From contig JAJFIR010000044.1 in NCBI GenBank assembly GCA_021774795.1, positions 1-64,000 of the forward strand: a stretch of 64,000 bases of DNA, given 5' to 3'. Position 1 is the stretch's first letter. Each line of letters starts with the position of its first letter. Origin of the DNA: Emcibacteraceae bacterium. GTDB lineage: Bacteria > Pseudomonadota > Alphaproteobacteria > Sphingomonadales > Emcibacteraceae. Below, in pieces: positions 6,295 to 43,020 of this stretch. Below the pieces are notes generated by a model. The model worked only from the letters and a program-made list of their open reading frames with translations. It was not told the origin of the DNA and did no database searches. A program made the translations under genes and the position numbers.

Positions 6295-6319
6295 GAAAAC
6301 AGGTAAAAACCTGTGCATT

Positions 6320-13701: not shown

Positions 13702-14852
13702 TTTTGCTTAATCACTTTGATAAATCTATCTAAAATATTTCGCATATCTTCTTCTGTCATGTCGGCAAATAATGGTAGTTCTATCATGCTTGCAGCCATT
13801 TTGGCCCCATATTCACATGATATATTTTCATCAGCCCATGATAAACCGTACGGACGTCTTGTCTGGACCCCTTCTTCTTTCAGTAATTCCATCGCATCCA
13901 TCGGTGTTACACCTGTTGGCAAGTTAACCATTAATTTAATCAGGTACTTATCCTTTATATCCTGCACATGTTCAATTTCGGGATATTCAGTTAATATCTT
14001 TTCATATAGTTCGACAGCCTTTTTTTTCCCTTCCACGATGGTTGATAATTTTTGCATCTGCGATAATAATATTGCTGCATTAACCGAAGTCATTTTGGCC
14101 ACCGGGAGGTTTTGCCATTTGCCTTCACCAAAAATCCGCCACAAATAATAAGCAAAGTTTTTAGTATATTTCTCAAAAATATAGGAATAAGCAAAATGAA
14201 CGGCACTTAAAAAACCGTTTTTTGAAGTGGGCAAATCATCTGTGATTGTCAAACACTCTGAATTCAGATTAGTGTTATTGATCAATAAGGCTCCACCACT
14301 TCCGCTTCGACCGCTGACCAGTGTTTTGGATTGAGCAAAGCTGTAAACCCCATAATCGCCAAAGCTTCCCAATATTCTACCATTATGAGATAAACCCTGA
14401 ATCGCGGCAGCGTCATCAATGACGAAAATTTGCTTTTCAAGTGCTAAACTACAAATCGCTTCTATATCAATAGGAAAGCCGTAATTATGCACCGCAATTA
14501 CCGCTAAGACATTTGACATGTCTTGAGTATTAAGACGCTCCAAAGACATATTTAGATTATTATCAACATCCACATAGTGCGGCGTTAAACCTTCATCTGT
14601 TATCGCCTCCACAACGGCCCAACATACATAGGAAGGGACAAGCACAATTTTTTTGTTTGGTTCTTTTTTCTTGAATACCTGAAGTGCAACGCGAATGGCC
14701 GCCCGCCCGGAATTTAGCAGAACAACATCATTTGAGCCGGATATCCGGTGAAGTGCTTCTTTTAATTTTGCTAAAGCATCACCTTTTGGCAGTATAACCG
14801 CCCAAAATTCTTTCCACCCCCAATAGGCATATTTTAATCGGTATTTTTTCAA
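13698..14852 (-). CDS. DegT/DnrJ/EryC1/StrS-family aminotransferase
   Basis: 384 residues. PLP-binding elements of the sugar aminotransferase family are visible: DVVLLNSGRAAIRVAL, VLVPSYVCWAVVEAI, the aspartate in VIDDAAAIQG, and a Schiff-base lysine candidate in SFAQSKTLVSGRSGSGG. The family transfers an amino group to a keto sugar nucleotide. It starts with TTG overlapping the rfbD stop (TTGA), inside the dTDP-rhamnose operon, so a dTDP-4-keto sugar is a possible substrate. The sequence around the lysine differs from the commonest form, so the substrate is uncertain. Confidence 0.85.
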   Translation of the reverse strand: MKKYRLKYAYWGWKEFWAVILPKGDALAKLKEALHRISGSNDVVLLNSGRAAIRVALQVFKKKEPNKKIVLVPSYVCWAVVEAITDEGLTPHYVDVDNNLNMSLERLNTQDMSNVLAVIAVHNYGFPIDIEAICSLALEKQIFVIDDAAAIQGLSHNGRILGSFGDYGVYSFAQSKTLVSGRSGSGGALLINNTNLNSECLTITDDLPTSKNGFLSAVHFAYSYIFEKYTKNFAYYLWRIFGEGKWQNLPVAKMTSVNAAILLSQMQKLSTIVEGKKKAVELYEKILTEYPEIEHVQDIKDKYLIKLMVNLPTGVTPMDAMELLKEEGVQTRRPYGLSWADENISCEYGAKMAASMIELPLFADMTEEDMRNILDRFIKVIKQK

Positions 14853-15718
14853 AACTTATCGCTCTGCATTAATTTGGCTAACGCGCCCTTCCAGTCACTT
14901 GGAGAAACACCATACAGTGAATTTATTTTTGAACAGTTAAGAACAGAATTTTTTGGCCTTTGTGCTGCTGCTGGATACTGATCAGTGGTGATGGGTGTTA
15001 CCTCAACAGCATGAGGTATCTTTTTTGCCTTTAAAGCTAAATCGAAAATGCATTTCCCATAATCAGCCCATGACGTAACCTGACCTCCCGCGAAATGCAG
15101 GGTTTCGTTATTCGCCGTGTTTTTTGAGTTAATAATGGAAATGATACAGTCCGCGATATCCCCTGCGTAGGTCGGGCAACCTATTTGATCACTTATGATA
15201 TTTATGTTCTGATTATCCTGAGCCAGTGTCATCATGGTTTTTAAGAAATTTTGTCCATATTCACTAAAGACCCACGAAGTCCTAATGATAAAGTAATCGC
15301 ATCCGCTACGGCCAATAGCCAGCTCTCCTTCTGCTTTTGTTTTTCCATAAATATTGATCGGATTAATAGGATCATCTTCAACGTACGAAACTGCGCTTTC
15401 GCCATCAAAAACATAATCGGTAGATATATGGATAAAAAGAGCCTCATTATTTTTACAAAGTTTTGTTAATTTTTTTACCGCAGTAGCGTTGACCATTCTT
15501 GTTATTTCTTCATCATTTTCGGCCTTGTCCACTGCTGTATATGCGGCGGCATTAATGATAATATCGGGATTATGTTTTTTAAATATCTCATCCGCCTGTT
15601 CTTTTGAAGTAATGTCAAACTCCGATGAAGTTAGGGCAACAAATTTCCATGTATCTGGTACCCGGTCTATTATGCATTTTCCAAGTTGGCCCCCCGCGCC
15701 TGTCAACAAAACTTTCAT
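14849..15718 (-). CDS. rfbD: dTDP-4-dehydrorhamnose reductase
   Basis: 289 residues, normal length. The last step of dTDP-L-rhamnose synthesis: NADPH-dependent reduction of dTDP-4-keto-L-rhamnose. Shows the Rossmann start KVLLTGAGGQLGKCI, the SDR-type active-site region YVFDGESAVSYVEDDPINPINIYGKTKAEGE (YGKTK) and FIIRTSWVFSEYGQNF. It overlaps rfbC upstream and the DegT gene downstream by four bases each. Confidence 0.95.
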   Translation of the reverse strand: MKVLLTGAGGQLGKCIIDRVPDTWKFVALTSSEFDITSKEQADEIFKKHNPDIIINAAAYTAVDKAENDEEITRMVNATAVKKLTKLCKNNEALFIHISTDYVFDGESAVSYVEDDPINPINIYGKTKAEGELAIGRSGCDYFIIRTSWVFSEYGQNFLKTMMTLAQDNQNINIISDQIGCPTYAGDIADCIISIINSKNTANNETLHFAGGQVTSWADYGKCIFDLALKAKKIPHAVEVTPITTDQYPAAAQRPKNSVLNCSKINSLYGVSPSDWKGALAKLMQSDKF

Positions 15719-16251
15719 TTTGGCAGGTCTTCCAGATTTAACCCACGCTGATCTTTTTCAGAAAGCGTCGGATTATCCAGCGGCCATGCAATATTTACCG
15801 CTTCATCATTCCAAATTAAACAGCCCTCATCCGTCGGGTCATAATAATCTGTGCACTTATACTCGAAATCAGCCGTTTCCGACATGGTAAGGAACCCATG
15901 AGCAAATCCAGGTGGTATCCATAACTGGCTATTATTTTCAGCCGATAAAGTAACCCCTACCCATTTTCCATATGTTTTTGAACCTGATCTAATGTCAACC
16001 GCAACATCAAATACTTCACCGCTTATGACGCGGACCAATTTACCTTGCGGTTTATCTTTTTGAAAATGAAGGCCACGAAGCACGCCTTTCGATGAACGCG
16101 AATGATTATCCTGTACAAATTTTTGTTTAATACCAACTTCATTTTGGTACCGAACGCTGTTAAAGCTTTCCATGAAAAACCCCCGTTCATCACCAAATAA
16201 TTTTGGTTCGATGATCACAACCTCTTCTATGTCTGTTTTAATAACCTTCAA
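15715..16251 (-). CDS. rfbC: dTDP-4-dehydrorhamnose 3,5-epimerase
   Basis: 178 residues, a typical cupin-fold RmlC. Epimerises dTDP-4-keto-6-deoxyglucose at C3 and C5. Motifs: EPKLFGDERGFFMESFN, the catalytic histidine region KGVLRGLHFQ, and IPPGFAHGFLTMSE. The start is TTG at 16251, with AGGTGA just upstream. It lies 10 bases after rfbA in the operon. Confidence 0.95.
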   Translation of the reverse strand: MKVIKTDIEEVVIIEPKLFGDERGFFMESFNSVRYQNEVGIKQKFVQDNHSRSSKGVLRGLHFQKDKPQGKLVRVISGEVFDVAVDIRSGSKTYGKWVGVTLSAENNSQLWIPPGFAHGFLTMSETADFEYKCTDYYDPTDEGCLIWNDEAVNIAWPLDNPTLSEKDQRGLNLEDLPK

Positions 16252-16261
16252 GGATCACCTT

Positions 16262-17143
16262 TTAATTGAAACCGTTAGCAAGCTGTGTCAGATATTGCCC
16301 ATAGCCAGTCTTACTATAAAATTCTGCCTGCTTTAATAACTCACCATGGCTTATCCATCCTTGCGAATACGCTATTTCCTCTAGGCAGGCCACTTTATAA
16401 CCCTGTCTTTTTTCAACGGTTTGGACAAAATGCCCTGCATCCATTAATGAATCGTGTGTACCCGTATCCAGCCATGCAAACCCGCGCCCTAATAAACTTA
16501 CATTAAGATCACCACGCTTCAGATATATTCTGTTAACATCGGTTATTTCAAGCTCACCGCGCGCCGAAGGTTTCATCGATTTAGCAATTGAAATAACGTC
16601 ATTATCATAGAAATAAAGCCCGGTTACTGCATAATTTGATTTCGGTTCGCTTGGTTTTTCTTCGATGCTGACGGCTTTACCGTTTTGGTCAAATTCAACA
16701 ACGCCGAAACGTTTCGGATCAACCACATGATAGCCAAATACTGTGGCACCGGCATCTCTCTTCACGGCAACATCAAGTTTATCGGTAAAATGCTGTCCAT
16801 AAAATATATTATCACCCAGTACTAAGCTTACATTATCATTTCCAATAAATTCTTCGCCAATTAAAAATGCTTGTGCCAGACCATCTGGCGACGGCTGAAC
16901 TTTATAGGTAAATGTCACGCCAAATTGTGAACCATCACCGAGCATTCTTTTAAAATATGGCAAATCTTCCGGCGTCGATATGATCAAAATTTCATTAATT
17001 CCAGATAACATTAGAACCGATATGGGATAATAAATCATTGGTTTATCATAAATGGGCAATAATTGTTTAGAAACACCGAGTGTTATCGGATGCAACCGTG
17101 ATCCTGACCCTCCCGCAAGGACTATACCTTTATATTTTTTCAT
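16262..17143 (-). CDS. rfbA: glucose-1-phosphate thymidylyltransferase
   Basis: 293 residues. Makes dTDP-glucose from dTTP and glucose 1-phosphate. The nucleotidyltransferase signature [18 protein letters not shown] and [15 protein letters not shown] are intact, as are [10 protein letters not shown] and [14 protein letters not shown]. It follows rfbB by 12 bases. End-product control by dTDP-L-rhamnose is known for the family. Confidence 0.97.
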
Positions 17144-17155
17144 CTCTTTTCCACT

Positions 17156-18220
17156 CTACTTATTCACGCCCAAACGTTCCATCTGATAATCACCGCTTAA
17201 AACACGTTCCCACCAGTCTTTATTATTAAGGTACCACATAATTGTTTTCGACATTCCGCTTTCAAATGTTTCCTGTGGCTCCCACCCCAGGTCATTTTTT
17301 ATTTTAGTGGCATCAATGGCGTATCTTATATCATGGCCAGGTCTGTCTTTAACAAAAGTAATCAGATCCTTGTAATTCTGTAACCCTGTCGGCTTTTCAG
17401 GCACATGTTTTTCCAATAATTCACATATAGTCTCAACTACCTCTAAATTGGTTTTTTCATTATTACCGCCAATGTTGTAAGTTTGTGCAATCTTACCTTC
17501 TGTAGCCACCTTATAGAGTGCCGCCGCGTGATCTTCTACATAGAGCCAGTCCCTAACCTGTAATCCATCGCCGTAGACAGGCAAAGGTTTGTTATCCAGT
17601 GCATTTAAGATCATATGCGGAATTAATTTTTCTGGAAAATGATAGGGACCATAATTATTAGAGCAATTGGTTATTACGGTCGGAAAACCGTAAGTCCTCT
17701 GCCATGCGCGAACCAGATGGTCTGAACTCGCTTTGGATGCAGAATAAGGGGAGCTAGGATCATATGATGTTGTTTCGACGAATAAATCATGCCCGTGGCC
17801 AAGATCACCATAAACTTCATCGGTTGAAACGTGGTGAAATCTGAATTTATCTTTTGTTTGACCACTTAAGCCCATCCAGTAATTACGCGCAGAATCCAAT
17901 AAAGTATAGGTACCAACAATATTGGTTTTAATAAATTCCCCCGGACCGTCGATTGAACGATCAACGTGAGATTCCGCCGCCAAATGAATGATAATATCTG
18001 GTTTGAAATCCTCAAAGATTTGGACCAAGGCAGTCCCGTTACATATATCTTCCTGTAAATGTCTGTAACGTTCATTGCCGCAAACTGAATTAAGGGAGTC
18101 AAGATTACCGGCATAGGTCAATTTATCCAAGTTTAATACCTGGTGATTTGTGTGATCTATTATGTGGCGAATAAGTGCACTTCCAATGAACCCTGCGCCA
18201 CCCGTTATAATTATATTCAC
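17156..18220 (-). CDS. rfbB: dTDP-glucose 4,6-dehydratase
   Basis: 354 residues. NAD-dependent extended [21 protein letters not shown] at the start, [22 protein letters not shown], and the [14 protein letters not shown] active-site YxxxK. Converts dTDP-glucose to dTDP-4-keto-6-deoxyglucose. The start is GTG at 18220 with GAGGG upstream. It is the first gene of a seven-gene minus-strand operon running to 11288; the 100-base gap to the divergent GH5-like gene must hold both promoters. Confidence 0.96.
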
Positions 18221-20450: not shown

Positions 20451-23060
20451 ATGGATCAATCAGAACCGATCAATGTCGTAGGGATTATTAGTAAAAATTC
20501 TATAGATTATATCGATGCTATGTTCCAAGCTTACAGTGAAAATAAAATTGCAATCCCAGTTTCAAATATCGAGTTTGGCAAGCGCTTCAAAATTCTTGAA
20601 TTTCAACAAATCATCGAACCCGGCTTAGATACCGGTTGGTATAATAAATCCCATGATCTGATCCATAGCGATGATTTAGCGCAGATTTCGTTTACTTCCG
20701 GTACCGAAGGTGAGCCCAAAGGCATTATACTTACCCACAATAACCTGGCAGATGTAACGGAACGCATAAATAAAGTCATGCAAGTCACCAGTGAAATACG
20801 TGAATATGTGGGCGTGCCGGTCTATTATTCTTTCGGCTTCGGGCGCATTCGCGCCTGCACTGCGGCAGGAGGGAAAAGTTATATACCCAGAAACGGATTT
20901 AATCCTCTTGAAATAATAGAAATGTTAAAGGCAGATCAGATAAATGCTATTTCTGCGGTACCTACTCTGTGGCGTATTATATTAAACAATCCTAGCATTA
21001 TAGGTAAATTAGGAGAAAAAATCAGGTGGATTGAAATCGGCAGCCAATATATGTCTGGTGATGAAAAAGAACAAATGAAAAAGTTGTTCCCTAACGCCAA
21101 AATCGCTCAACATTATGGGCTGACTGAAGCATCCAGATCCTCCATCCTAGACATATCAGCTACAGAAGGCGGTGCACTTGAATCCGTCGGAAAGCCAGCT
21201 GATATTTCTAATATCGACATTTCCGTTGATGGACGCATTAGAATTAGAGGACCACATGTCGCTAATCAGATGATCACTGGTGATGGGATGGCTTCTACTA
21301 TTGATCACGACGGTTGGCTGACAACTAACGATCTGGGTAAAATAGAGGACGGGTATTTATATTTTATGGGTCGTGCTGACGACATTATAAATTGTGGGGG
21401 CATAAAGGTTTCTCCGGATTTGATCGAAAAGCAAATATATAAGTCACTTGAGATTAACAGCGGTATCGCAGTTGCGCGGATCGCCGATCCTATACGTGGA
21501 GACGGCATTCTCATTGCGCTGGAAAATAATTGTGCGATTGACAGCGATGAACTTAAGATATTGGCGAACAAGATATTGAAAAAGATGGGCGTCCAAGCGG
21601 GAGATTCTCTTAAAATAGTTAAAACTGAAAAAATCCCAACAACGGAAACAGGAAAAGTAAAACGTAATGAACTACCCAATTTAATAGAAAAAAGTTATCA
21701 GGAGGAAACAGCGGTCACAAACCAAACAATTTCAAATACGACCGATAACATTACCGACGAACAAGAAAAACTTTGTGCTATTTGGCGCGAAGTGCTTGAG
21801 GTTGAAGATATCTCGATACATTCTAGTTTTTATGATTATGGCGGCGATTCACTTTCTGCCATTAATTTAACGTTGACTATGGAACGCTTAGACGTGCCAA
21901 GACAAATAGCGCAGGATATTATTAATGGTAAGTCAATTGCCCAGGTTACCGAAGATGCGCCTCATTCCGATCAATCGGCAGCCAACGGCGTTATCGACAA
22001 ATATCTTTATATTGCGACAACAAGCGAAGCCATTAATGCCGTTAGAGGAATAATGGTATTGCTGCTACTTTTCATCAGGTGGTCACCAGGTGTTTTAAAA
22101 AGGCTTTCTCTTTATGACGAGGGCTTGCTTAATCCCCTTTTTCGTCTTGGAACTCCCGGATTTGCTATCGTATTTGGAATTAGTGTCGGATTCTATTTCT
22201 TCCATCAATTCGGAATAAATAAAGCGAAAACCGTCAAAAATATCAGAGTAGCTCAAATTCTTCTTGTTTGCGGAATAGGCACCTTGGCATTGATGAATTA
22301 TCTGAATTTGATATATGCAGATTACGAGCGTGAGACTCCAATGTTAAGTTATCTCGTCTATTCCGTGCTATTTTACTATCTATTAGCCGTCTCAAGCATT
22401 TCAATCTGGTACAAGATATTGACCAGTTTTAAAAACACCATTGCCGCTACTTTGGTCGGTGCTGCGATCATGTTTTTATTGCAAGTCCAATTCAAGGTCT
22501 GGAATTTCAGCAGCCAACTAACAGAGAACGGTTGGTATCTGTTTGGCAGGATGCTGGAAGGAAAATATAGTTATTTTACGATGACGGGAATGGTGTTTTG
22601 TGGGCTTTCCATTGGATTATACATACGAAACTGCCTTAACGAACAAAGAAAACTGGTCAATTTTCTTCCATTTGGTGCAGCTCTCATATTGTTTGGGATC
22701 ATAATTTCCATTGAAAATGGTGAGTTTGACAAATGGCAGGAATATACAATCGCGCGGGTCTGGATGATTATAACATATGTTGGTGTCGTCCTGACAATGC
22801 TGTCTATTTCTTTATATTATAACACTTTAAAAAATCGTAATAAGCTATTCTTATTTATTTATAGGATCTTAGCAATATTAGGATTACTGTCTTTGCCTAT
22901 GTATGTCGGTCATAGATTGGTTGTACCTGCGAAAGACCTGCTGTTAATCGTGGATGTGCCAGGTATAGCTGCTATCGCCGTGCCAGCACTGGTCTTCTTT
23001 GGGTTGATAGGGTATTGGACACACAAGCTATACAGAGTTTATTATTCAGTGAGCAAATGA
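20451..23060 (+). CDS. adenylation domain - carrier domain - acyltransferase-3 membrane fusion
   Basis: 869 residues in three parts. Residues 1-415 are an AMP-forming adenylation domain: FTSGTEGEPKG (82-91), QHYGLTEAS (220-228), LTTNDLG, GRADDIINCGGIKVSP (308-322) and the A10 lysine K402 in TETGKVKR. It is compact, with a short stretch between the A1-like start and the P-loop. Residues about 435-500 are a phosphopantetheine carrier with YDYGGDSLSA (S467). Residues about 525-869 are a polytopic membrane domain like acyltransferase family 3 (INAVRGIMVLLLLF, FRLGTPGFAIVFG, LSLPMYVGHRLVV). The family R-x10-H motif reads R532-x10-R543, so the usual histidine is lost. AGGGAGAA precedes the ATG. Inference: it activates an acid, loads it on its carrier and presents it to a membrane acyltransferase, like DltA-DltC-DltB in one chain. 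The substrate is unknown. Confidence 0.85.
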   Translation: MDQSEPINVVGIISKNSIDYIDAMFQAYSENKIAIPVSNIEFGKRFKILEFQQIIEPGLDTGWYNKSHDLIHSDDLAQISFTSGTEGEPKGIILTHNNLADVTERINKVMQVTSEIREYVGVPVYYSFGFGRIRACTAAGGKSYIPRNGFNPLEIIEMLKADQINAISAVPTLWRIILNNPSIIGKLGEKIRWIEIGSQYMSGDEKEQMKKLFPNAKIAQHYGLTEASRSSILDISATEGGALESVGKPADISNIDISVDGRIRIRGPHVANQMITGDGMASTIDHDGWLTTNDLGKIEDGYLYFMGRADDIINCGGIKVSPDLIEKQIYKSLEINSGIAVARIADPIRGDGILIALENNCAIDSDELKILANKILKKMGVQAGDSLKIVKTEKIPTTETGKVKRNELPNLIEKSYQEETAVTNQTISNTTDNITDEQEKLCAIWREVLEVEDISIHSSFYDYGGDSLSAINLTLTMERLDVPRQIAQDIINGKSIAQVTEDAPHSDQSAANGVIDKYLYIATTSEAINAVRGIMVLLLLFIRWSPGVLKRLSLYDEGLLNPLFRLGTPGFAIVFGISVGFYFFHQFGINKAKTVKNIRVAQILLVCGIGTLALMNYLNLIYADYERETPMLSYLVYSVLFYYLLAVSSISIWYKILTSFKNTIAATLVGAAIMFLLQVQFKVWNFSSQLTENGWYLFGRMLEGKYSYFTMTGMVFCGLSIGLYIRNCLNEQRKLVNFLPFGAALILFGIIISIENGEFDKWQEYTIARVWMIITYVGVVLTMLSISLYYNTLKNRNKLFLFIYRILAILGLLSLPMYVGHRLVVPAKDLLLIVDVPGIAAIAVPALVFFGLIGYWTHKLYRVYYSVSK

Positions 23061-24379
23061 GTGAAACGGAAATAACAAATCAACAAAAAGAACTCATACA
23101 AATTTGGCAGGAAGTACTTGAGGTAGACCAAGTTTCCATCCATTCAAGTTATTATGATTACGGCGGAGATTCACTTTCAGCAATTAATCTAATGCTGACA
23201 ATGGAAAAACTTGGTATTGAGAAGTCGTTAATACAAGATATAATAAATGGCAGGACCATTGCTCAGATTACCAATTCTCGTGATCAGATGACAGCCGATG
23301 CCACAGTCAAAGATGGCGAAGAAAATAAATACGCCTTAATAGCAAAAGCAAGCGAAGCCATCAACGCGACGCGTGGTTTTATGGTTTTATTTCTTGTTTT
23401 TATTCACTGGTCTCCCGGTGTATTTGAAAGGTTATCAATTGACTTTGAACGCATTACAAATCCCCTTTTTCGAATTGGAACGCCGGGTTTCGCAATAGTT
23501 TTTGGCCTGAGCGTTGGTTTTTTCTTTTTTTCACAGTTTGAAACAAATTCAAAAAAAGCCCGGAAAAATGTGCGAGTAGCACAATTCTCAATATTAATCG
23601 CCATGTCTTTATTAGCGGCAATGAAGTATGCAGAAATCAAATTGCTGGCTCTCGAACCGTCCCTTCCTTTACCAACGGTGCTTTTCTATTCCGTGTTATT
23701 ATACTATTTCCTTGCTGTGACAAGTATTCCTATTTGGTATAGGATTTTGGCGAGTTTCGAGAACCTGCCCGCTGCTGCACTATGTGCATCTATTTTAATG
23801 TTTGCATTGCAAATTATCGTTCGTGATATTCTTTCAGGTTTCCCTGATCTGGCTGGAATATGGCATTTAATAGGTTTGATGGCAGAAGCGAACTATAATT
23901 ATTTCTTTATGTCCGGTATTGTTTTCGCAGGCATGTCGATCGGTTTATATATCAGAGAGTGCCTTTCTGAGCAAAAAAACACAACAGGGCTATTGCAGTG
24001 CGGGTTCGCTTTAATAGTTTTAGGAATTCTATTATCGATCGAAAGTGGCTTGATTGAAACCTGGTTAACCCGCAAAACGGCTTCCATACATATGATAACT
24101 ACATATTTGGGTGTCATCCTGATAATTTTATCTATGGCTCTAAATTATAGTCATCGGACACGCCGAAATTCATTCTTTTTAATGGTTTTTCGGGTCTTTG
24201 CGGTTTTAGGACTTTTGTCACTGCCCATCTATGTCGGGCACGGACTGGTAATACCGGTGAAAGATGTTTTAGTAGCATTTGGAGTACAATATTCCCTGTC
24301 ACTTGCAGCGTCGATGTTGACATTTTCTTTGCTGATAGTTTATGCAGGAATGAAGTTATATAGATTATATTACAAATAG
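23057..24379 (+). CDS. carrier domain - acyltransferase-3 membrane fusion (paralogue lacking the adenylation domain)
   Basis: 440 residues from the ATG at 23057, which overlaps the preceding stop as ATGA; an earlier in-frame ATG at 23015 would force a 46-base overlap. Residues 1-75 are a carrier domain almost identical in layout to that of the upstream protein (YDYGGDSLSA, S39). Residues about 95-440 are the same membrane domain (INATRGFMVLFLVFIHWSPG, FRIGTPGFAIVFG, LSLPIYVGHGLVIP). Here the R-x10-H motif is intact (R106, H117). Inference: the catalytically competent acyltransferase of the pair, possibly charged by the adenylation domain of its neighbour. It arose by partial tandem duplication. 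Confidence 0.85.
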   Translation: MSETEITNQQKELIQIWQEVLEVDQVSIHSSYYDYGGDSLSAINLMLTMEKLGIEKSLIQDIINGRTIAQITNSRDQMTADATVKDGEENKYALIAKASEAINATRGFMVLFLVFIHWSPGVFERLSIDFERITNPLFRIGTPGFAIVFGLSVGFFFFSQFETNSKKARKNVRVAQFSILIAMSLLAAMKYAEIKLLALEPSLPLPTVLFYSVLLYYFLAVTSIPIWYRILASFENLPAAALCASILMFALQIIVRDILSGFPDLAGIWHLIGLMAEANYNYFFMSGIVFAGMSIGLYIRECLSEQKNTTGLLQCGFALIVLGILLSIESGLIETWLTRKTASIHMITTYLGVILIILSMALNYSHRTRRNSFFLMVFRVFAVLGLLSLPIYVGHGLVIPVKDVLVAFGVQYSLSLAASMLTFSLLIVYAGMKLYRLYYK

Positions 24380-27810: not shown

Positions 27811-29421
27811 TCATCCGGGTAGATAATCCGGCAGGTTTGGTGCAATGCTATCGATAAAAAGCTTCAATCTGTCTTCTGCAACATTTATTTCTTCCCCGTC
27901 AAAAATTGGGGTTGTTACCCTAACCAACGCACCGTCAGTTCTGTTCATAAAAATTGCATCTTTTACAAGGTGCCATTTCATTAGATATTCATTAGAAATT
28001 TTTCGGCCTCTTTGATCGAACCAATAATAAACTAATTGCCGCGAGGAATCACGTTCGATGATTGCTCTATTAATTGGCAGGGTCTGTGTGCCGTTTGCTA
28101 ATTCAATCTCAAGACGGTCAAATTCAGTAATAAGCCATCCGCCGCCAGGAATACATACCCTTGGTGAATGCGGTGAAACCCCCTTACGTTGTGAGGAATA
28201 ATAAGCTACATAGAAGTTTACTGGCATTGTTTGCTGAATTGAGTTAACAGGTCTACTTTGCAGTAGTGCGGGGCCTTGATCAATTTGCGGAATACGGTAA
28301 TCCGCTAAAATATAATCATCAAAGCCTAGAGCTTGCTCGATACCCGTATCAAGAAATAATTTCTTAGATTTCCAATTATTAATGTCTTTAGGAAACGACA
28401 CAAACCTGTCACGATCAGGCTTATTCTCAACCCGGTCCGTTATATTAAACGTTGTAATCATAGCAACCACCATAAATACGCCAATTACACTGATCGGTAG
28501 CAAAGGTTTATCTGTCTTAACAGAAGATACTTTTTGCGCTGTTACCTCTGGCAAGTCAAATAATTCGAAAAAATCGCCTCTCTTGCCAAATTTGGTAAAT
28601 ATCCAGACTTCCCCACATAACATCGCAGCACAAGCCATAAAAATGACCCAACCCTCAAAATAATGAAGAAGGCCATCTGCCATTCCGCCACCCCAAATTT
28701 CAACAAGCACTCCGACCATACCAATTCGAAAACTATTCATTAAGATGGTGATTGGAATAGTTGATAGAAAAACGATTACTCGTTGCCAGAATGGTGCTTT
28801 GAATAGATAAGCAACTAAAAACCCTAAACTTGAAAGAGGGTAAAGATATCTTAGACCACTGCACGCATCCACGACCTGGAGCTTGTAAGTTCCAAGATCA
28901 ATAACATTGCCTTCCAAAAATACCGGAATATTGAACAGCCTAATAAAAAACACGCCCAACTCTGAAGATACTAACTGTAACCGCCACGAAAGAATAGTAT
29001 CGAGAAAATACGGCATCGGAATCGCAAAAGCCAGAAAAGCGATTGGCAAAAATGTCAATCTAAGAAATGGTATTCCACCAAACGCTAAACACATTCCAAT
29101 CAAAGAGACAATAAAACCAGTCTGAACTAAAATAAAAATGGCACTTAATTCACCAACTAATAGCATAAAGAACGCCAGTAAAATCAAAATCAGCCCCATC
29201 CACGATGGATTATCAATACTTTTTCCCAGCGCATCACGTCGATCCCATAGCATCCAAAGGGATATCAGTGGAATGAGAAACCCATGACTATATTCTTCTT
29301 GAGACATCCAGCGGCCATATTGATTAATGAGTCCTCCGCTAAAAGCCGCAAGGCAGAATACTACTGCCATTGCCAGCAGAATAATTCGATATAAATTTTC
29401 TTTTAAAATATTTTCAGTCAT
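27811..29421 (-). CDS. xrtD: exosortase fused to EpsI domain (VPLPA-CTERM-specific XrtD-like)
   Basis: 536 residues. The N-terminal about 290 residues form an eight-helix exosortase: EEYSHGFLIPLISLWMLW, then the catalytic cysteine C187 in VVDACSGLRYL, the arginine R232 in LMNSFRIG and the histidine H253 in LLHYFEGWV. Residues about 310-536 are the periplasmic EpsI domain (SVIGVFMVVAM helix, then CIPGGGWLITEF and YYWFDQRGR). The enzyme recognises a C-terminal sorting signal, cuts it and probably attaches the protein to a surface glycan. The only candidate target seen in the window ends with VPLPP, a VPLPA-type signal, which is why I favour XrtD over XrtA. The assignment within the family is less certain than the family itself. 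Confidence 0.9.
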   Translation of the reverse strand: MTENILKENLYRIILLAMAVVFCLAAFSGGLINQYGRWMSQEEYSHGFLIPLISLWMLWDRRDALGKSIDNPSWMGLILILLAFFMLLVGELSAIFILVQTGFIVSLIGMCLAFGGIPFLRLTFLPIAFLAFAIPMPYFLDTILSWRLQLVSSELGVFFIRLFNIPVFLEGNVIDLGTYKLQVVDACSGLRYLYPLSSLGFLVAYLFKAPFWQRVIVFLSTIPITILMNSFRIGMVGVLVEIWGGGMADGLLHYFEGWVIFMACAAMLCGEVWIFTKFGKRGDFFELFDLPEVTAQKVSSVKTDKPLLPISVIGVFMVVAMITTFNITDRVENKPDRDRFVSFPKDINNWKSKKLFLDTGIEQALGFDDYILADYRIPQIDQGPALLQSRPVNSIQQTMPVNFYVAYYSSQRKGVSPHSPRVCIPGGGWLITEFDRLEIELANGTQTLPINRAIIERDSSRQLVYYWFDQRGRKISNEYLMKWHLVKDAIFMNRTDGALVRVTTPIFDGEEINVAEDRLKLFIDSIAPNLPDYLPG

Positions 29422-29592: not shown

Positions 29593-30720
29593 TCAACCTG
29601 CAACTTCCTTTTGAAACTCGTTGAGTAAACTTTGCGGCAGGTTCTTTTGAAGCCCACAGATCGTTAAACCGCATTTGATTTGCGCCAAATCCCTTTTAAG
29701 CAACGTTAGTAACCCCATAAAAACGGTGTCCATATAGTCCACCTTACTCACGTCAATAGTAACAGATGTTTTTTTCAACATAATATTTTTAAATAATTTC
29801 CTTATTTCCTGTAAATTATCTTTAATTATTACACCCTCTAAGAAAATCACATTTGGATCTCCGGCAATCACTATCTTCGGCTTTACCAAATGTTTTACAT
29901 TGTTTGGTTTATTACTTCTGAGGTTCATACTTTGTCGAACGGCTTGGGTTATAATCAGATGGATGAGGGAAACACCGTCTTTAAAATACCGACTAAATAA
30001 TGAAGGCTCCTCTTTTATCCGCCAAAGCCACTCTAAATGCATTGTTTGCACCCATTCAGGTGCCCTTTTCACAGAACCTGCCATGAAATTTACAACGGCA
30101 CCTAAATGACTAATAACCGGAGCATTCAGATTTTTTCGATTTCTTTCTATCCATGCCTGCCCTTTTACGGCCCCCAACGATACAATGATAAAATCGGCGC
30201 CTGCCTTATTAACTTCTTCAATTATGCTATCTTCACTCATGTCTTCAACAGAGCCAAAACCAGGGTTTAGGAAACCAACACTCGTCAGGCCGTTCAACGA
30301 AGAATTCAAGTTTGCATGAGCTTTTGCTGCCATACCGTCCTGTCCACCGAAGAAAAAAACTTTAATTGGGTTATTTTTACATTCTTCGTTGTCCCCAAGC
30401 GTCTCTATTAAACTGGACCCCGCCACGCGCACTTTTATCGGAATGCCAAACATTTTACATAAAAATACAATTGGCATTCCATCTGCAATGCTCAAATCAG
30501 AATTAATTACTGAATTTCGAAACGTTTCATTTTTTTGACTGGCTATCAGGAAGTTCAAATTTGGGGTGGAAATAAATGTTTTTCTCTTTTCTCTCACCGC
30601 GTCAATTACCACCCTAACCGCACCGTCCATATCAACAGCATCAAATGTCAACCCAAGCAGGTAATGGATATCCCGATCAAAACCAACAGCGGGTTTGCCT
30701 ATTTGTGAGTTTTCAGCCAT
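29593..30720 (-). CDS. WecG/TagA/CpsF glycosyltransferase fused to a STAS domain
   Basis: 375 residues. Residues about 15-260 are a GT26-type transferase: FISTPNLNFLIASQ, NSDLSIADGMPIVF, VFFFGGQDGMA, and HLEWLWRIKEEP. These enzymes add ManNAc, ManNAcA or glucose-type sugars to lipid-linked intermediates at the inner membrane. The C-terminal about 85 residues read as a STAS domain (TSVTIDVSKVDYMDTVFMGLLTLL, here split by the protein's fold), of the type seen in anti-sigma-factor antagonists. No conserved phosphoserine is evident: the usual D-S is D-T. The gene overlaps the upstream GT2 gene by 22 bases. A 171-base gap separates it from the exosortase gene. Confidence 0.85.
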   Translation of the reverse strand: MAENSQIGKPAVGFDRDIHYLLGLTFDAVDMDGAVRVVIDAVREKRKTFISTPNLNFLIASQKNETFRNSVINSDLSIADGMPIVFLCKMFGIPIKVRVAGSSLIETLGDNEECKNNPIKVFFFGGQDGMAAKAHANLNSSLNGLTSVGFLNPGFGSVEDMSEDSIIEEVNKAGADFIIVSLGAVKGQAWIERNRKNLNAPVISHLGAVVNFMAGSVKRAPEWVQTMHLEWLWRIKEEPSLFSRYFKDGVSLIHLIITQAVRQSMNLRSNKPNNVKHLVKPKIVIAGDPNVIFLEGVIIKDNLQEIRKLFKNIMLKKTSVTIDVSKVDYMDTVFMGLLTLLKRDLAQIKCGLTICGLQKNLPQSLLNEFQKEVAG

Positions 30721-31616
30721 AAATCCGCCCTAGAATGGTTTATTTCTTCTATTGCCCTCTTTTTACCGACAAGTAATACCCGATTTTGATATTTCTTAAT
30801 GAACTTAATCAATTCTTTATCAGAATATTGCCTCTCACCCCTCACCCAACTCCGTAAATATCCGTATACCATAGCCATACCACCAATTATGTATGGGCGG
30901 TGAAACATTCTGTAACAAACAGTCGCCATAAAATACAATAAGCTGCTGCCCATAAAATATTGGCCAAATCCGTGACGCACCCTGCCAGTCAAAATTCCAT
31001 TTTGGCTGGACCCCATTGGCCGCAAATGGATAAAACGTATTGCTGGCTCATTGCTGCTACAGGCAATCCAGCCCAGGAAACGGCATCTATGACAATCGAT
31101 GGCGTCCCACATCACTTCACGGACGAACCCGCCTATTTCATTAAAACATTCCCGACGATAAAATTTCGCGGCACCAACACACATTTCGTCTCCGCACTTC
31201 TCACTTATCTCTTTACCTTCAAAAACAAAATAAGGCTTGCCGCTAAAACACCCTAATCTCGGATTATTTTGCATTTCGATCATTAAATTTTCAAAATATG
31301 AAGGTTTTAATATTAAGTCCATATCAAGCTTACAAATATAATCATATTCTTTGGTATCAGTTCTTTCCAGACCTTTATAAAATGCTTCTATTACACCTGG
31401 GCCGACACTTCTTCCTCCCCTGTCGTCATTTCTTACGTGCTTTATCCAGCTATAATTTTTAACATACTCTTCTATTATTTCCGGCGTTTCATCCGTCGAA
31501 CCATCATCAACAATGATCCATTTCTTTGGCAAAATAGTTTGCTTGCAAACACTGTCGAGCGTTCTACGCATAAATTTTGCTTCGTTACGGCATGGAGAAA
31601 CAAGTAAATAGGACAT
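30699..31616 (-). CDS. family 2 glycosyltransferase
   Basis: 305 residues. The GT-A fold is evident: LVSPCRNEAKFMRRTLDSV, IVDDGSTDETPEII, and the DxD-type CKLDMDLILKPSYF. VMWDAIDCHRCRFLGW and an arginine-rich stretch follow. It probably adds one sugar of the exopolysaccharide repeat unit at the cytoplasmic face. A late hydrophobic patch (YFMGSSLLYFMATVCYRMF) may touch the membrane. Donor and acceptor are unknown. Confidence 0.9.
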   Translation of the reverse strand: MSYLLVSPCRNEAKFMRRTLDSVCKQTILPKKWIIVDDGSTDETPEIIEEYVKNYSWIKHVRNDDRGGRSVGPGVIEAFYKGLERTDTKEYDYICKLDMDLILKPSYFENLMIEMQNNPRLGCFSGKPYFVFEGKEISEKCGDEMCVGAAKFYRRECFNEIGGFVREVMWDAIDCHRCRFLGWIACSSNEPAIRFIHLRPMGSSQNGILTGRVRHGFGQYFMGSSLLYFMATVCYRMFHRPYIIGGMAMVYGYLRSWVRGERQYSDKELIKFIKKYQNRVLLVGKKRAIEEINHSRADLWLKTHK

Positions 31617-31641
31617 TTAAATTAAAATTCTTTCTGATCTT

Positions 31642-32859
31642 TTACTCATTAAAATATTTTTCAAGTCGTGTAATATTGACATCGCGGCTAAATTCATTGG
31701 TAACATGTTTTGCCGCCTTTTTCGTAAGTGTGAAACGTAATTTTTCATCTTTATAAAGCCGTTCAATAGCCCGTGCCAATAGTTCAGGAGAGTTTGGTTC
31801 CACGAGCAAGCCCGTTTCATGATCAATTACAAGTTCGGGTATGCCTGATATTCTTGTTGAAATAACCGGAAGACCAAGCATCATTGCTTCCATCAACACA
31901 ACGGGAATACCGTCCATATCTCCGTTACTATCTTTTTGGCACGCTAAGGCAAATACATCCATCCCAGACATCCAATCAGCAACTTTGGAGTTATCAATAG
32001 CACCAAGCAGACTTACACTGTCTGATAGAGAAAGATCATCAATTTGTTTTTGCAGTATATTTTCCTGTGGACCGTCCCCCGCTATTGAGAGGGAAAAAGG
32101 TACATTTTTACTCTTGAGAATAGCACATGCTTCTATTAACACTGGCATCCCTTTTTTTTCTACTAGCCTTCCCAATGAGCAAATTTTAAATTTTTTATCT
32201 GGCTTTTTATCGCGTTCTTGAAATTTCAAATTTACTCCGCAACGAACCACACGAACTTTAATTTTATCAAGCCCTCTGGCTTCTAAAAACTTTCGATTAA
32301 ATTCAGATATAGTGAGAAAATATTTCGACCTTTCGGCTTTGCGTTTCAAAATTAAACCATGTTCAAAAATATCATTGGCATGTGAGGTAACCGTGTAATC
32401 AATTCCCGTTATTGCGCTCGCATACATCGCCACCTGACTGGGGACATTTGCAAAATGTGCATGCAGATGGTCGCTGCCATTGTTTTTAACTATCTGGGCT
32501 ATTCTGCAACTGGCAAAAAATTGATAGACAAGCTTATAAGAGGCGGAATTCATTATTCCCACATGAAAAAAATCCGCGATGAGCCAAGAAAGTCCCTTGA
32601 AAATACCTGATGGCACCGTAAACAGACACACTAGAAACGAAAGTATAAACCGAATTACACCTTCCAAATAAAGATAGTGTACCTTTCCTATTCTTTGCTT
32701 AACATCATCGGATATTTGTTCAGGCATATGGATGGATATCGCATGGACTGTATATCCACGTTCGCGAAGGGCGAATATTTCGTTATACACAAACGTTTCC
32801 GATAATGCCGGAATAGCCGGCGACAGATAGGTGATCGTTTTTTTTCTGGAATCTGCCAT
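31642..32859 (-). CDS. family 4 glycosyltransferase (GT-B fold)
   Basis: 405 residues. Begins TYLSPAIPALSETFVYNEIF, typical of EpsD-type or colanic-acid transferases of exosortase and Wzx/Wzy loci. The C-terminal nucleotide site reads KICSLGRLVEKKGMPVLIEA, LSIAGDGPQENIL and the E-x7-E-like MEAMMLGLPVISTRISGIPE. Retaining transferase for an unknown sugar. It sits 1 base from the acetyltransferase gene upstream. Confidence 0.93.
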   Translation of the reverse strand: MADSRKKTITYLSPAIPALSETFVYNEIFALRERGYTVHAISIHMPEQISDDVKQRIGKVHYLYLEGVIRFILSFLVCLFTVPSGIFKGLSWLIADFFHVGIMNSASYKLVYQFFASCRIAQIVKNNGSDHLHAHFANVPSQVAMYASAITGIDYTVTSHANDIFEHGLILKRKAERSKYFLTISEFNRKFLEARGLDKIKVRVVRCGVNLKFQERDKKPDKKFKICSLGRLVEKKGMPVLIEACAILKSKNVPFSLSIAGDGPQENILQKQIDDLSLSDSVSLLGAIDNSKVADWMSGMDVFALACQKDSNGDMDGIPVVLMEAMMLGLPVISTRISGIPELVIDHETGLLVEPNSPELLARAIERLYKDEKLRFTLTKKAAKHVTNEFSRDVNITRLEKYFNE

Positions 32860-32860
32860 A

Positions 32861-33367
32861 CTATATTGCGTTATTTTTTACGACTTTTGCAGGGATGCCA
32901 ACAACAGTTGCACCCTCATCAACATCATTTAATACAACGGCATTAGCCCCAACCTGACTATGATCGCCTAACTTAACTTGGCCCAATATTTTTGCGCCCG
33001 CACCAATGTCAACATGCCCCCCTAATACCGGAACGCCGCCCTTTTGAATGCCCAGTGTTACTTGTTGAAAAATAAGACAATTAGGCCCGATTTTGACATT
33101 AGGATGGATAACAATCCCGTTAGGATGCGGAAGAAGCAGTCCGCCGCCAATTTGACAATCCAAATCAATTTCTGCACCCGTAATGATGCTCCAGAACCGG
33201 TGCGATAACACCCAATATTTGATCCCCAGTAATTCGAATATATTGTTTTTATTTTTTTTCAATTGCTGATATTTACGAATAGACCGTAATAAACGACGTC
33301 CAGGATCCCAGAATTTATTGGGCGTTTCACGTCGCCAATCTGGAATATCTGCTGATATCTCGGACAT
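32861..33367 (-). CDS. serine-acetyltransferase-like hexapeptide-repeat acetyltransferase
   Basis: 168 residues. Left-handed beta-helix repeats (IGGGLLLPHPNGIVIHPNVK, IGPNCLIFQQVTLG, LGGHVDIGAGAKILG, VKLGDHSQVGANAVVL) and the end VVGIPAKVVKNN define a CysE/NodL-type O-acetyltransferase using acetyl-CoA. It is much shorter than CysE and lies among glycosyltransferases, so sugar O-acetylation is more likely than cysteine synthesis. TAGGAA precedes the ATG. Confidence 0.88.
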   Translation of the reverse strand: MSEISADIPDWRRETPNKFWDPGRRLLRSIRKYQQLKKNKNNIFELLGIKYWVLSHRFWSIITGAEIDLDCQIGGGLLLPHPNGIVIHPNVKIGPNCLIFQQVTLGIQKGGVPVLGGHVDIGAGAKILGQVKLGDHSQVGANAVVLNDVDEGATVVGIPAKVVKNNAI

Positions 33368-33405
33368 ATTTTTATCGTTCCTACATTCTCAAATTTAAAT
33401 TAATA

Positions 33406-34380
33406 TTAGCTCTTATATTCTATTATAGTGTTGTTTTGTCCCGTTAATCGATTGTAATGATACCTGACATAACCACAAAACTCGGGAAATTTATCCAATA
33501 GGCAAAAACACGCATATATTAATTTATCTGCATCACCATAAGGAATTTTCAGCTTCCCAAATATCCTAATTACCTGCAACGGATATATACATAGCAATAA
33601 AATAGCAAATGGTGGTTTAATGATCATTAATATGATTAATAAAAAAGGTAAAATCGCGCCCCAAAATATAAAACTTCTTCTTTCTTGCTGCCATTTCCCC
33701 CATCTAGCGGCATTCGCATATGAAAAACCGGTTCTAAATGATCTAACCCACCACTGTGAATAAGATGTCATCGCGCTATCATGGGTTCCCATATTTTCTT
33801 CAAGACAGAACATTCTTTGACCCAGTTCACGCACACGTAAATAAAACTCCGGTTCTTCGCCGGCAATTAAATTTTCATCAAAACCATTTAATTTTTTGAA
33901 AACTGAAACCCGTATGGTCGCGATGCCGCCACAAGAATATATTTCCCCCGGGCGGATATACCATCCCATATCGTTAAGCTTTGCATAAATAGATTTGGAA
34001 ATATCTTTTTCCCTAAGCCTTCCGCAAACAACGGCAATGTCATTCTCCTTATTCAGTTTTTCACATGCAAATTTTAGCCAGTTCTCATCAAGTTCACAGT
34101 CACCATCGATGAAATGAACATATTTCAATCCGGATACATTTTTTATCAGCCATTTAAATCCTTCATTTCTGGCCCGGGCCGCAGACATTGGTTTATTTGT
34201 GTCCAATTCCAATATATTCGCGCCAATACTTCTCACAATCTCAACGCTATTATCGTTAGAATTGGAATCCACATAAATAAACGTAGATCCACTATCAATT
34301 ACCGATCTGACGCATTTTTTAATGCGCTTTCCTTCATTTCGGCCAATTATCACAATGCCAATATTATTCACATTCGACAT
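33406..34380 (-). CDS. family 2 glycosyltransferase with C-terminal membrane segment
   Basis: 324 residues. GT-A motifs: IVIIGRNEGKRIKKCVRSV, IYVDSNSNDNSVEIV, and the DxD-type YVHFIDGDCELDENW. AGEEPEFYLRVRELG supplies the ED-like acceptor site. About residues 245-280 are strongly hydrophobic (ILPFLLIILMIIKPPFAILL), anchoring it to the inner membrane. It overlaps the PP-loop gene by 13 bases, suggesting coupled translation. Confidence 0.92.
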   Translation of the reverse strand: MSNVNNIGIVIIGRNEGKRIKKCVRSVIDSGSTFIYVDSNSNDNSVEIVRSIGANILELDTNKPMSAARARNEGFKWLIKNVSGLKYVHFIDGDCELDENWLKFACEKLNKENDIAVVCGRLREKDISKSIYAKLNDMGWYIRPGEIYSCGGIATIRVSVFKKLNGFDENLIAGEEPEFYLRVRELGQRMFCLEENMGTHDSAMTSYSQWWVRSFRTGFSYANAARWGKWQQERRSFIFWGAILPFLLIILMIIKPPFAILLLCIYPLQVIRIFGKLKIPYGDADKLIYACFCLLDKFPEFCGYVRYHYNRLTGQNNTIIEYKS

Positions 34381-35630
34381 TCGCTAACCTTTTTTCGGCC
34401 ATTTAACTCATTTGGATGAATGATCTTTACATCAGCTTCTAGTAACAATTTAAACAATCGTTTTGGTTTATGAAGACCTTCCCTAAATGACGAAATCTTT
34501 GGTGACGGATTTGTTTTTGGGTAAACGACATCTCTTCCCAGTAAAATTTTGCCAATTTTGGGCCTGACATCCTTTTGCAGCACAGCACCAAAATCTGCGT
34601 TAGCAATAACAGAACGTACATTTTTTCCGTGATAGGCTGATAAAACAAGACTATCCGTTAAAGCTCGTAAAAAGCTCATATGGGCTCCCTGAAGATTATT
34701 ACAAATTCCCCATATCCTCCTGAGGACAACCGGCTGAAACTTATGGCCTACTCTTCTGTGAACCCAATATGGCAATAGATAGGAAAACTTTTTATAAATG
34801 CGTCTTATCGTTCTAATTGGCTCGACATATGGCGTTATATAGTGTTTCCAGCTATCCGTTAAATAAAGGTCACCCATTTGACCTTTCCACAGTATTGTTT
34901 TCTTGGAATATTCGTTAACAATATTTTGTAAATCCACCCCCCAGCGCCAGTGTGTCAAGTCAGCGCGACAAAACGATTCTAATATTTCCGTATCCTGTGA
35001 ATTTTCGTTAAATGTGTCTTCAAGTTTTCTTACGGCAATATCTAAATTGTTATTTTTTACAAATTCACACACCAGTTCATAATTTGGATCGGCACTTATC
35101 GCTACCACAGGGTTTTTCCACGGCAACAATAATAAATTCATACTGTCTTTGCCGCCACACATTATAATATTTGTATAATTTTTGTTTTTTTTCTCAATTA
35201 TTTCTATATCTTCAATTAATGCATTTGCCATCTTTCGGCAATATTCATCAACATCGGTAATAGAATAGTTAAAATCGTGTAGTCCGTTAATTTTTCTGAT
35301 CTCAAGGTCCACAGTTTCATTATTGAAGTGATGGACGAAATCATCGTCATCGATCGCTTCAACCGCTTTATCATTCACTTTTAAGTTATTTTTCAGCAAA
35401 ACTAATGCGAGGACCGAATAAGAATAATAATTTTTATATTTATAAATATTATAAAATGATGGAATGCCATTAAAGTCATTAGCCTGCCAAACCACAGGAC
35501 CATGTTGTTGCCACATCATATCTTCGTTAAGGACGTTCACTTTTTCTACGTGCTTAATTTTTTCCTTGATTTGATCTATATGGCATATTTTAACGATTGT
35601 TTTATTCCAATATTTATTAGAACTTTTCAC
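34368..35630 (-). CDS. asparagine-synthase-like PP-loop ATPase protein, function unknown
   Basis: 420 residues. The clearest motif is NIIMCGGKDSMNLLLLP at about residues 155-170, a PP-loop (SGGxDS type, with C158 in place of serine) as in asparagine synthetase and other ATP pyrophosphatases that adenylate a carbonyl or carboxyl. VAISADPNYELVCEFVKNNN follows, as in that fold. There is no N-terminal glutaminase domain. It lies between galU and a GT2 gene, overlapping both by 13-14 bases, so it is part of exopolysaccharide synthesis. Amidation of a uronic acid or attachment of an amino acid are possible roles; neither is shown. Confidence 0.6.
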   Translation of the reverse strand: MKSSNKYWNKTIVKICHIDQIKEKIKHVEKVNVLNEDMMWQQHGPVVWQANDFNGIPSFYNIYKYKNYYSYSVLALVLLKNNLKVNDKAVEAIDDDDFVHHFNNETVDLEIRKINGLHDFNYSITDVDEYCRKMANALIEDIEIIEKKNKNYTNIIMCGGKDSMNLLLLPWKNPVVAISADPNYELVCEFVKNNNLDIAVRKLEDTFNENSQDTEILESFCRADLTHWRWGVDLQNIVNEYSKKTILWKGQMGDLYLTDSWKHYITPYVEPIRTIRRIYKKFSYLLPYWVHRRVGHKFQPVVLRRIWGICNNLQGAHMSFLRALTDSLVLSAYHGKNVRSVIANADFGAVLQKDVRPKIGKILLGRDVVYPKTNPSPKISSFREGLHKPKRLFKLLLEADVKIIHPNELNGRKKVSECRM

Positions 35631-36492: not shown

Positions 36493-36493
36493 A

Positions 36494-37858: not shown

Positions 37859-37924
37859 TATGTATTACCTTAGTAATTTTCCAAAAACAGACCCCATTAA
37901 TACCGATTATTTCTTTAATTTACA

Positions 37925-39313: not shown

Positions 39314-39425
39314 TATTTATGAATTTCTTTCAAATAAAATGTTGGTTGTGAACGCTCACGATGTTGTGGTTCTAATGGTTTTGAAAAGATATAATGATGA
39401 TCAGGCTGGTAATAGTACAAAAGAA

Positions 39426-40235: not shown

Positions 40236-40262
40236 GAAGTTCCCTTTTGCTCATGATAAAGA

Positions 40263-41843: not shown

Positions 41844-41867
41844 TATTCGTTCTCTATATACTAAAGC

Positions 41868-42995: not shown

Positions 42996-43020
42996 AGTAA
43001 TTCTACCTTCGTGTTATTAA

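Follow-up and report, generated by a model that had tools for sequence, protein, structure and literature searches.

A gene pair fusing adenylation, carrier and Acyl_transf_3 domains in an exosortase-type exopolysaccharide locus: a candidate carrier-fed acylation system

Architecture of the gene pair

The window analyzed here, a 64,000-nucleotide stretch of contig JAJFIR010000044.1 from an Emcibacteraceae bacterium (assembly GCA_021774795.1), harbors two adjacent genes that bring together domains for the activation, carriage, and membrane transfer of an acyl group. The first protein, designated P1, consists of an adenylation domain (A), a carrier domain (T), and an Acyl_transf_3 membrane domain (AT3), and the second, P2, of T and AT3 domains (Table 1). 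The architecture is real, recurrent, and built of known parts, and its donor logic is likely to be new.

Reading of the window bore out the positions and frames reported for both genes in a preliminary description, as well as their coupling by an ATGA overlap of the P1 stop and P2 start codons on the same strand. Scans for promoters and terminators performed no better than on shuffled sequences (16 versus 13.5 and 4 versus 2.8, respectively). The preliminary description had assigned an AMP-forming adenylation domain, a carrier with serine S467, and an acyltransferase-3-like domain to P1, and a carrier with serine S39 followed by the same membrane domain to P2. A search with PF00501, PF00550, and PF01757 led to the same assignment: it identified the A and T domains of P1 (98 bits for AMP-binding, cut-off of 29.9; 36.7 bits for PP-binding, cut-off of 20.8) and the T and AT3 domains of P2, relating the membrane part to acyltransferases. 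With both domains above cut-off, K402, and S467, P1 contains an A-T unit resembling those of nonribosomal peptide synthetases (NRPSs). Acyl_transf_3 had no Pfam match in P1 itself at E ≤ 1, and the membrane part of P1 was assigned to AT3 because it is 50% identical to that of P2. The AMP-binding match of P1 begins at position 154 of the 384 positions of the profile, its N-terminal subdomain being short. A misplaced start site was rejected as an explanation since the open frame has only five extra codons and the short form is common to the relatives. Hydropathy peaks numbered nine in P1, eight in P2, and ten each in the relatives L016 and L028 (L-numbers are labels of the relatives' loci), the AT3 fold comprising ten.

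AT3 proteins require an R-X10-H motif in transmembrane helix 1 (TMH1). In OafA, the substitutions R14A and H25A leave 0.07% and 0.33% of the activity, respectively (PMC7448272), and the requirement also appears in PMC9833829 and PMC12423673. In the 25-row alignment of the membrane domain, the arginine is invariant and the histidine is present in 24 rows, P1 being the single exception (R543). A sequencing error is unlikely since the AGG codon of P1 differs at all three bases from the CAC codon of P2. Over 34 conserved columns, P1 deviates at two and P2 at none. As judged from the loss of the histidine in P1 only, the near inactivity of OafA H25A, and the retention of the other columns, the transferase of P1 is probably dead and that of P2 alive. 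Loading and transfer would thus probably be split between the two proteins because P1 lacks the histidine. Activation, carriage, and transfer had been proposed to reside in one membrane protein; this holds for most relatives, in which the histidine is kept, but not for P1. The preliminary description mentioned neither this substitution nor the conserved short form of the A domain, nor that the architecture recurs in other genomes. Regarding other motifs, FxxxxG of TMH2 is invariant (25/25 rows), and SxxxY of TMH9 has S in 11/24 and Y in 12/24 rows, with A and F otherwise. The Acyl_transf_3 profile scored 48.3 bits in the congener L016 (cut-off of 31) and was not called at E ≤ 0.001 in L019, L026, L028, L037, and L041, which were scanned whole. 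A sequence search of solved structures with the membrane profile gave none.

Carrier and membrane domains in the relatives

Matches to P1 at 1e-30 were found in 6 of 246 genomes of the order: the genome of the window, one congener with a fusion cut by a contig end, one genome from another family with a fusion, and three congeners matching P1 over the membrane domain only. For the genus, 13 genomes were listed, and eight of them had no P1 match. The AT3 of the window clade is rare, since the membrane profile matched at 1e-15 only the genome of the window among 385 genomes of the class. Scanning 84,980 species genomes with two membrane-domain peptide patterns yielded 23 loci, 20 with fused genes or cut fusions and three with bare AT3 genes, in Alphaproteobacteria, Chlorobiaceae, a Planctomycetota bin, Microbulbifer, a Deltaproteobacteria bin, and one further bacterium. 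Named bacteria with this architecture include Rhizobium etli CFN 42 (RHE_RS24855), Cognatiyoonia sediminum DSM 28715, and Microbulbifer aggregans. In L022 (6770-9376), an in-frame TAA codon in the A domain splits the fusion. In L033 (G643:C17, Roseobacter WL0113) and L030 (G640:C92, Shimia bin), the contig breaks within the fusion, so that its two ends carry A and AT3, respectively. These contigs, of 67 and 61 kb, respectively, also carry an exosortase gene, and the ends of G643:C17 share 77 bases; they are possibly circular replicons, or the assembly may have been broken in repeated T domains.

A T domain immediately precedes AT3 in 22 of the 25 family rows, the other three being the bare congeners, and three or four tandem T domains are present in the intact relatives L025, L028, L029, and L035. 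The A domains found in 29 rows are of three kinds (20, 8, and 1) reassorted over both AT3 clades, and L037 (8264-11029) combines the family AT3 with the other type of A domain, indicating domain swapping. Thus, the T-AT3 pairing is the constant, since it persists with A domains of three kinds. In Actirhodobacter, L041 (5287-9477, minus strand), the second such gene of a genome that also contains L032, encodes an NRPS module of condensation (C), A, and T domains (PF00668, 1.2e-35; PF00501, 1.1e-53; PF00550, 9e-10) fused to the family membrane domain (2.2e-58 against the family profile). In L057 of Sphingomonas hankookensis, a T-like frame of 125 residues (5619-5996), with a DSL motif read by eye, overlaps a separate AT3 gene (5980-6999). 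The latter pair lies near genes for a TonB receptor and FecR. A phosphopantetheinyl transferase homologue is encoded directly upstream in all three Chlorobiaceae loci (Pfam run on one).

The pairing also extends to plasmids. Using an A-domain query, we found A-T-AT3 proteins on Paracoccus and Novosphingobium plasmids and a broken one in Neorhizobium; divergent A-T-AT3 proteins are plasmid-encoded in, among others, Rhizobium etli and Rhodococcus. The membrane domain of these plasmid proteins retrieved 25 plasmid records, 18 of which are labelled AMP-binding or AMP-dependent, and that of a Rhodococcus protein retrieved 36, 29 of which are so labelled, the two lists overlapping and many of their rows being near-copies. 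All nine divergent plasmid-borne proteins that were read through have a T domain followed by R-X10-H. Searches of plasmids with P2 and with the membrane domain of L029 gave no match. Comparison of the window-clade and divergent AT3 profiles was weak (probability of 24%, 36 columns), and only L053 exceeds the Pfam cut-off among the divergent AT3 domains; the two clades may be independent recruitments. Iron ABC transporter genes adjoin the divergent fusion in L050 (3690-7406), L051 (3329-7273), L052 (10312-13972), and L056 (7029-10686), on plasmids of Mycolicibacterium, Pararhizobium, and, in two cases, Rhodococcus.

In the membrane-domain tree, the bare forms (ca. 370 residues), which lie between the same neighbors in the three congeners, formed one clade (100/98) beside the fused L023. 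Together they fell into a clade with P1 and P2 (100/99), sister to the fused Chlorobiaceae proteins, and the same nesting was obtained when the tree was rooted on divergent fused relatives (100/97). Nesting of the bare AT3 forms within a fused clade indicates that their A and T domains were lost secondarily. The grouping of P1 and P2 differed between trees, P1 pairing with P2 in one (86/55) and P2 with the congeners in the rooted tree (81/28).

Since T-AT3 recurs with different kinds of A domains, in an NRPS module, in split genes, and with tandem T domains, the simplest reading of these arrangements is that the carrier-bound acyl group is the donor of AT3. More broadly, T-AT3 could be a general transmembrane off-loading module that takes an acyl group from a tethered carrier and delivers it outside the cytoplasm, with a multiplied carrier and varied loaders (short A, full A, and NRPS condensation-adenylation); this extension is advanced tentatively, as a serious possibility.

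Donor, substrate, and acceptor

We propose, with moderate confidence, that P1 and P2 together constitute carrier-linked machinery for acylation across the membrane. The A domain of P1 would activate an organic acid with ATP, and the acid would be loaded on the phosphopantetheine arm of the T domain of P1, P2, or both, the P2 carrier presumably being served by the A domain of P1. Tethered at the cytoplasmic mouth of AT3, the loaded arm would enter the pore used by other AT3 proteins for acyl-coenzyme A (acyl-CoA), and the AT3 domain of P2 would donate the group, on the opposite side of the membrane, to an acceptor that is most likely an exosortase-linked exopolysaccharide sugar or its lipid-linked unit. 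The AT3 domain of P1, devoid of the histidine, may act as a membrane anchor or partner.

Regarding the substrate, the solved structures nearest to the A domain are those of 4-coumarate, oxalyl, and malonyl CoA ligases. The amino-binding Asp position (D235 of GrsA) is occupied by Tyr or Phe in all 28 type I and II A-domain rows, and a His precedes YG in all 20 type I rows. An α-amino acid is therefore an unlikely substrate, and these residues hint at a small polar acid of another kind. A gene for a TauD-type dioxygenase immediately precedes the fusion gene in L028 and L029 and adjoins its end in L025, a neighbor that would suit hydroxylation on the carrier.

Regarding the acceptor, an exosortase was detected in 22 of the 24 genomes that carry the architecture, on the same contig as the fusion in 14 and within ca. 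22 kb in 9 (raw counts). The background was 51/372 in the class, 51/149 in Rhodobacteraceae, and 166/199 in Sphingomonadaceae. The latter proportion led us to drop the overall comparison with the class (p ~1e-15). Outside the sphingomonads, 17 of 19 genomes carrying the architecture have an exosortase. In Rhodobacteraceae, strong exosortase matches were found in 7/7 genomes with the fusion versus 34/147 others (p = 6e-5, with a threshold set post hoc and kinship ignored), and matches at E ≤ 0.001 in 7/7 versus 49/147 (p = 7e-4, kinship again ignored). Across genomes, the association was thus informative only in part, with an excess in Rhodobacteraceae and none in the sphingomonads. The link of the window clade to exosortase loci is likely but not proven, and the exosortase locus makes exopolysaccharide a plausible acceptor.

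Several observations weigh against carrier-fed acylation of an exopolysaccharide. The AT3 donor is considered to be acyl-CoA, not acyl carrier protein, in a review (PMC9558356). The 20-kb loci of the three bare congeners hold no remnant of A or T, and their genomes lack a type I A domain, the best A-domain scores being 89 and 87 bits in two of them, with none at 1e-20 in the third, versus more than 460 bits in the 20 genomes that carry this domain. In these congeners, AT3 works, if at all, without A and T. The R-x-x-R motif of TMH3, essential in OafA, is mostly K-x-x-R in the family (first position, K or R in 17/24 rows; second position, R or K in 19/24) and is lost in some rows. Only one frame of the draft genome, 147 residues long, matched phosphopantetheinyl transferases, and it is perhaps AcpS only. 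Five of the genomes with the fusion are sphingomonads (p = 1 for an exosortase excess within that group) and are uninformative because exosortases are so common in Sphingomonadaceae. Finally, two Chlorobiaceae genomes with the fusion have no exosortase, and, of the 10 annotated plasmid regions viewed around the divergent fusion, four have iron ABC transporter genes beside it, not polysaccharide genes.

Two alternatives deserve consideration. First, AT3 may accept acyl-CoA as usual, A-T having a separate or regulatory role such as local supply of acyl-CoA. The AT3 gene standing alone at the same place in three congeners fits this proposal, as do acyl-CoA use by published AT3 proteins (PMC9558356), the proximity of the A domain to CoA ligases among solved structures, and retention of the TMH1 arginine in 24/24 rows of alignment A3. 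However, a carrier would be superfluous for a CoA ligase, whereas T adjoins AT3 in nearly all family rows and in unrelated contexts, and is present in up to four copies, leaving this proposal unlikely. Second, an NRPS-like protein that off-loads through its membrane domain might produce, rather than a decorated polysaccharide, a lipid carrying an acyl group or a small metabolite for secretion, such as a metal-binding compound. We consider this improbable since the window clade lies beside exosortase and polysaccharide genes in Emcibacteraceae and within ca. 22 kb of an exosortase gene in more than a third of the genomes, despite the iron transporters beside divergent relatives, the existence of a C-A-T-AT3 module, and the location of L026 and L032 outside polysaccharide loci. 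Decay of P1 and P2 as duplicates, with a dead P1 transferase and a locus drifting to the bare AT3 of the congeners that lost A-T, would agree with the longer branch of P1 (0.76 versus 0.44 for P2) but is very improbable, as both frames are open, P1 keeps 32/34 conserved columns, and its A-domain motifs are intact.

Surrounding locus, known systems, and significance

The gene pair lies in an exosortase-type exopolysaccharide locus, as indicated by the nearby genes for exosortase, glycosyltransferases, and XrtA-type chain-length and export proteins. The setting put forward in the preliminary description was thereby confirmed. The AAA ATPase encoded downstream from P2 is presumably ExeA-like, and a TPR protein gene is also located downstream, with those of the ATPase and the exosortase. 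In the congeners, homologues of the glycoside hydrolase gene directly adjoin the bare AT3 gene. Farther away in the window (12511-13701, minus strand), an ATP-grasp protein distantly resembling carbamoyl phosphate synthase is encoded between aminotransferase-like and cyclase-like genes; this gene is conserved in the three congeners.

Table 1. Coordinates of the gene pair and of neighboring features in the window.
Feature	Position	Strand	Evidence or remark
P1, A-T-AT3 fusion, 869 aa	20451..23060	+	Stop TGA 23058-23060
P1 A domain, short N-terminal form (~aa 1-420)	20451..21710	+	PF00501 6.8e-28, profile 154-380
P1 A10 lysine K402	21654-21656	+	GK motif at 401
P1 carrier domain	21765..21950	+	PF00550 5e-9; phosphopantetheine serine S467 at 21849-21851
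P1 membrane domain, AT3 family	21993..23057	+	Homology to P2; R543 in place of motif histidine
P1 R543, codon AGG	22077-22079	+	At the expected place of the AT3 motif histidine
P2, T-AT3, 440 aa	23057..24379	+	ATG start at 23057
P2 carrier domain	23087..23266	+	PF00550 2.9e-8; serine S39 at 23171-23173
P2 AT3 domain	23318..24376	+	PF01757 8.9e-10, 38.6 bits versus cut-off of 31
P2 R-X10-H, intact (R106, H117)	H117 at 23405-23407	+	Alignment
Glycoside hydrolase family 5-like gene, upstream of P1	18303..20345	+	PF00150 4e-8
AAA ATPase, downstream of P2	24391..25329	-	PF13401 1.1e-26; same position in three congeners
Exosortase (EpsH) with DUF3485	27811..29421	-	PF09721 1.1e-68, PF11984 1.1e-49; 4 kb from gene pair
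Exopolysaccharide genes (glycosyltransferases, flippase-like, XrtA-type chain length, tyrosine kinase, export)	29593..43584	-	Follow the exosortase gene
dTDP-rhamnose genes rmlD, rmlC, rmlA	14849..18220	-	Above cut-off; opposite flank
Putative rmlB	17156-18220	-	Read from sequence only; part of the 14849..18220 block

Among known systems, DltA-DltC-DltB also proceeds from activation of an acid to a carrier and to membrane transfer. Its components are separate proteins and DltA activates D-alanine; the amino-binding Asp position of DltA is Tyr or Phe here. The suggestion of a Dlt-like logic with a different membrane family was upheld, as MBOAT, the Dlt membrane partner, had no Pfam match and Acyl_transf_3 was found in P2 instead. 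The AlmE-AlmF-AlmG glycylation system decorates a surface glycolipid with an A domain, a carrier, and a transferase, but these are separate proteins and the transferase is of the LpxL type. Aas-type fusions of an acyl-ACP synthetase and a phospholipid acyltransferase combine ligase and acyltransferase in one chain, and the A domain gave weak NCBIfam matches to them. In contrast, P1 scores far below their cut-offs, Aas contains no T domain, and its transferase belongs to another family.

TIGR03098, the NCBIfam exosortase A-associated acyl-CoA ligase, is an AMP-forming ligase of exosortase loci and the second-best NCBIfam match of P1, although P1 reached only 123.4 bits (cut-off of 592) and that family has neither carrier nor membrane domain. 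No TIGR03098 match was found in the genome of the window at E ≤ 1e-100, and scores above cut-off were obtained in 5 of the 24 genomes with the architecture, all sphingomonads. Classical exosortase A loci had been said to carry separate ligase, carrier, and decarboxylase genes, a contrast that stands for the ligase; in the available part of Haft 2006 (PMC1569441), the terms 'acyl', 'ligase', 'carrier protein', and 'decarboxylase' do not occur. Similarity to the AT3 or TmAT proteins (OafA, OafB, OatA, HGSNAT) lies in the above-cut-off PF01757 scores of P2 and L016, the conserved R-X10-H and FxxxxG motifs, and the roughly ten membrane helices that hydropathy suggests for L016 and L028. Known members take acyl-CoA as donor and have SGNH or racemase domains as fusion partners (PMC9558356 and PMC12423673), whereas the proteins described here have a carrier before AT3 and a K-x-x-R or lost motif in TMH3. 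The former review names SGNH and racemase fusions and does not contain 'adenylation' or 'AMP-binding'.

Literature searches, which reached few subscription journals, retrieved no paper on an A-T-AT3 protein or on PF01757, PF00501, and PF00550 together. The system therefore appears undescribed, as had been proposed, but its genes are not rare oddities because proteins of this kind are present in database records under the label 'AMP-binding protein'.

The surfaces of many bacteria carry decorations added by AT3 proteins, for which the literature consulted assumes acyl-CoA to be the donor. If the proposed mechanism is correct, carrier-fed AT3 would constitute a second donor class. If, in addition, T-AT3 is a general module, AT3 would not be bound to acyl-CoA, and NRPS-type chemistry could be exported straight onto surface glycans. 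A covalently tethered donor could also ease trapping and imaging of this hard-to-study family, and carrier-fed AT3 would point to non-acetyl decorations on exosortase-linked polysaccharides. The fusion thus suggests a so far unreported route to load decorations and export them onto surface sugars.

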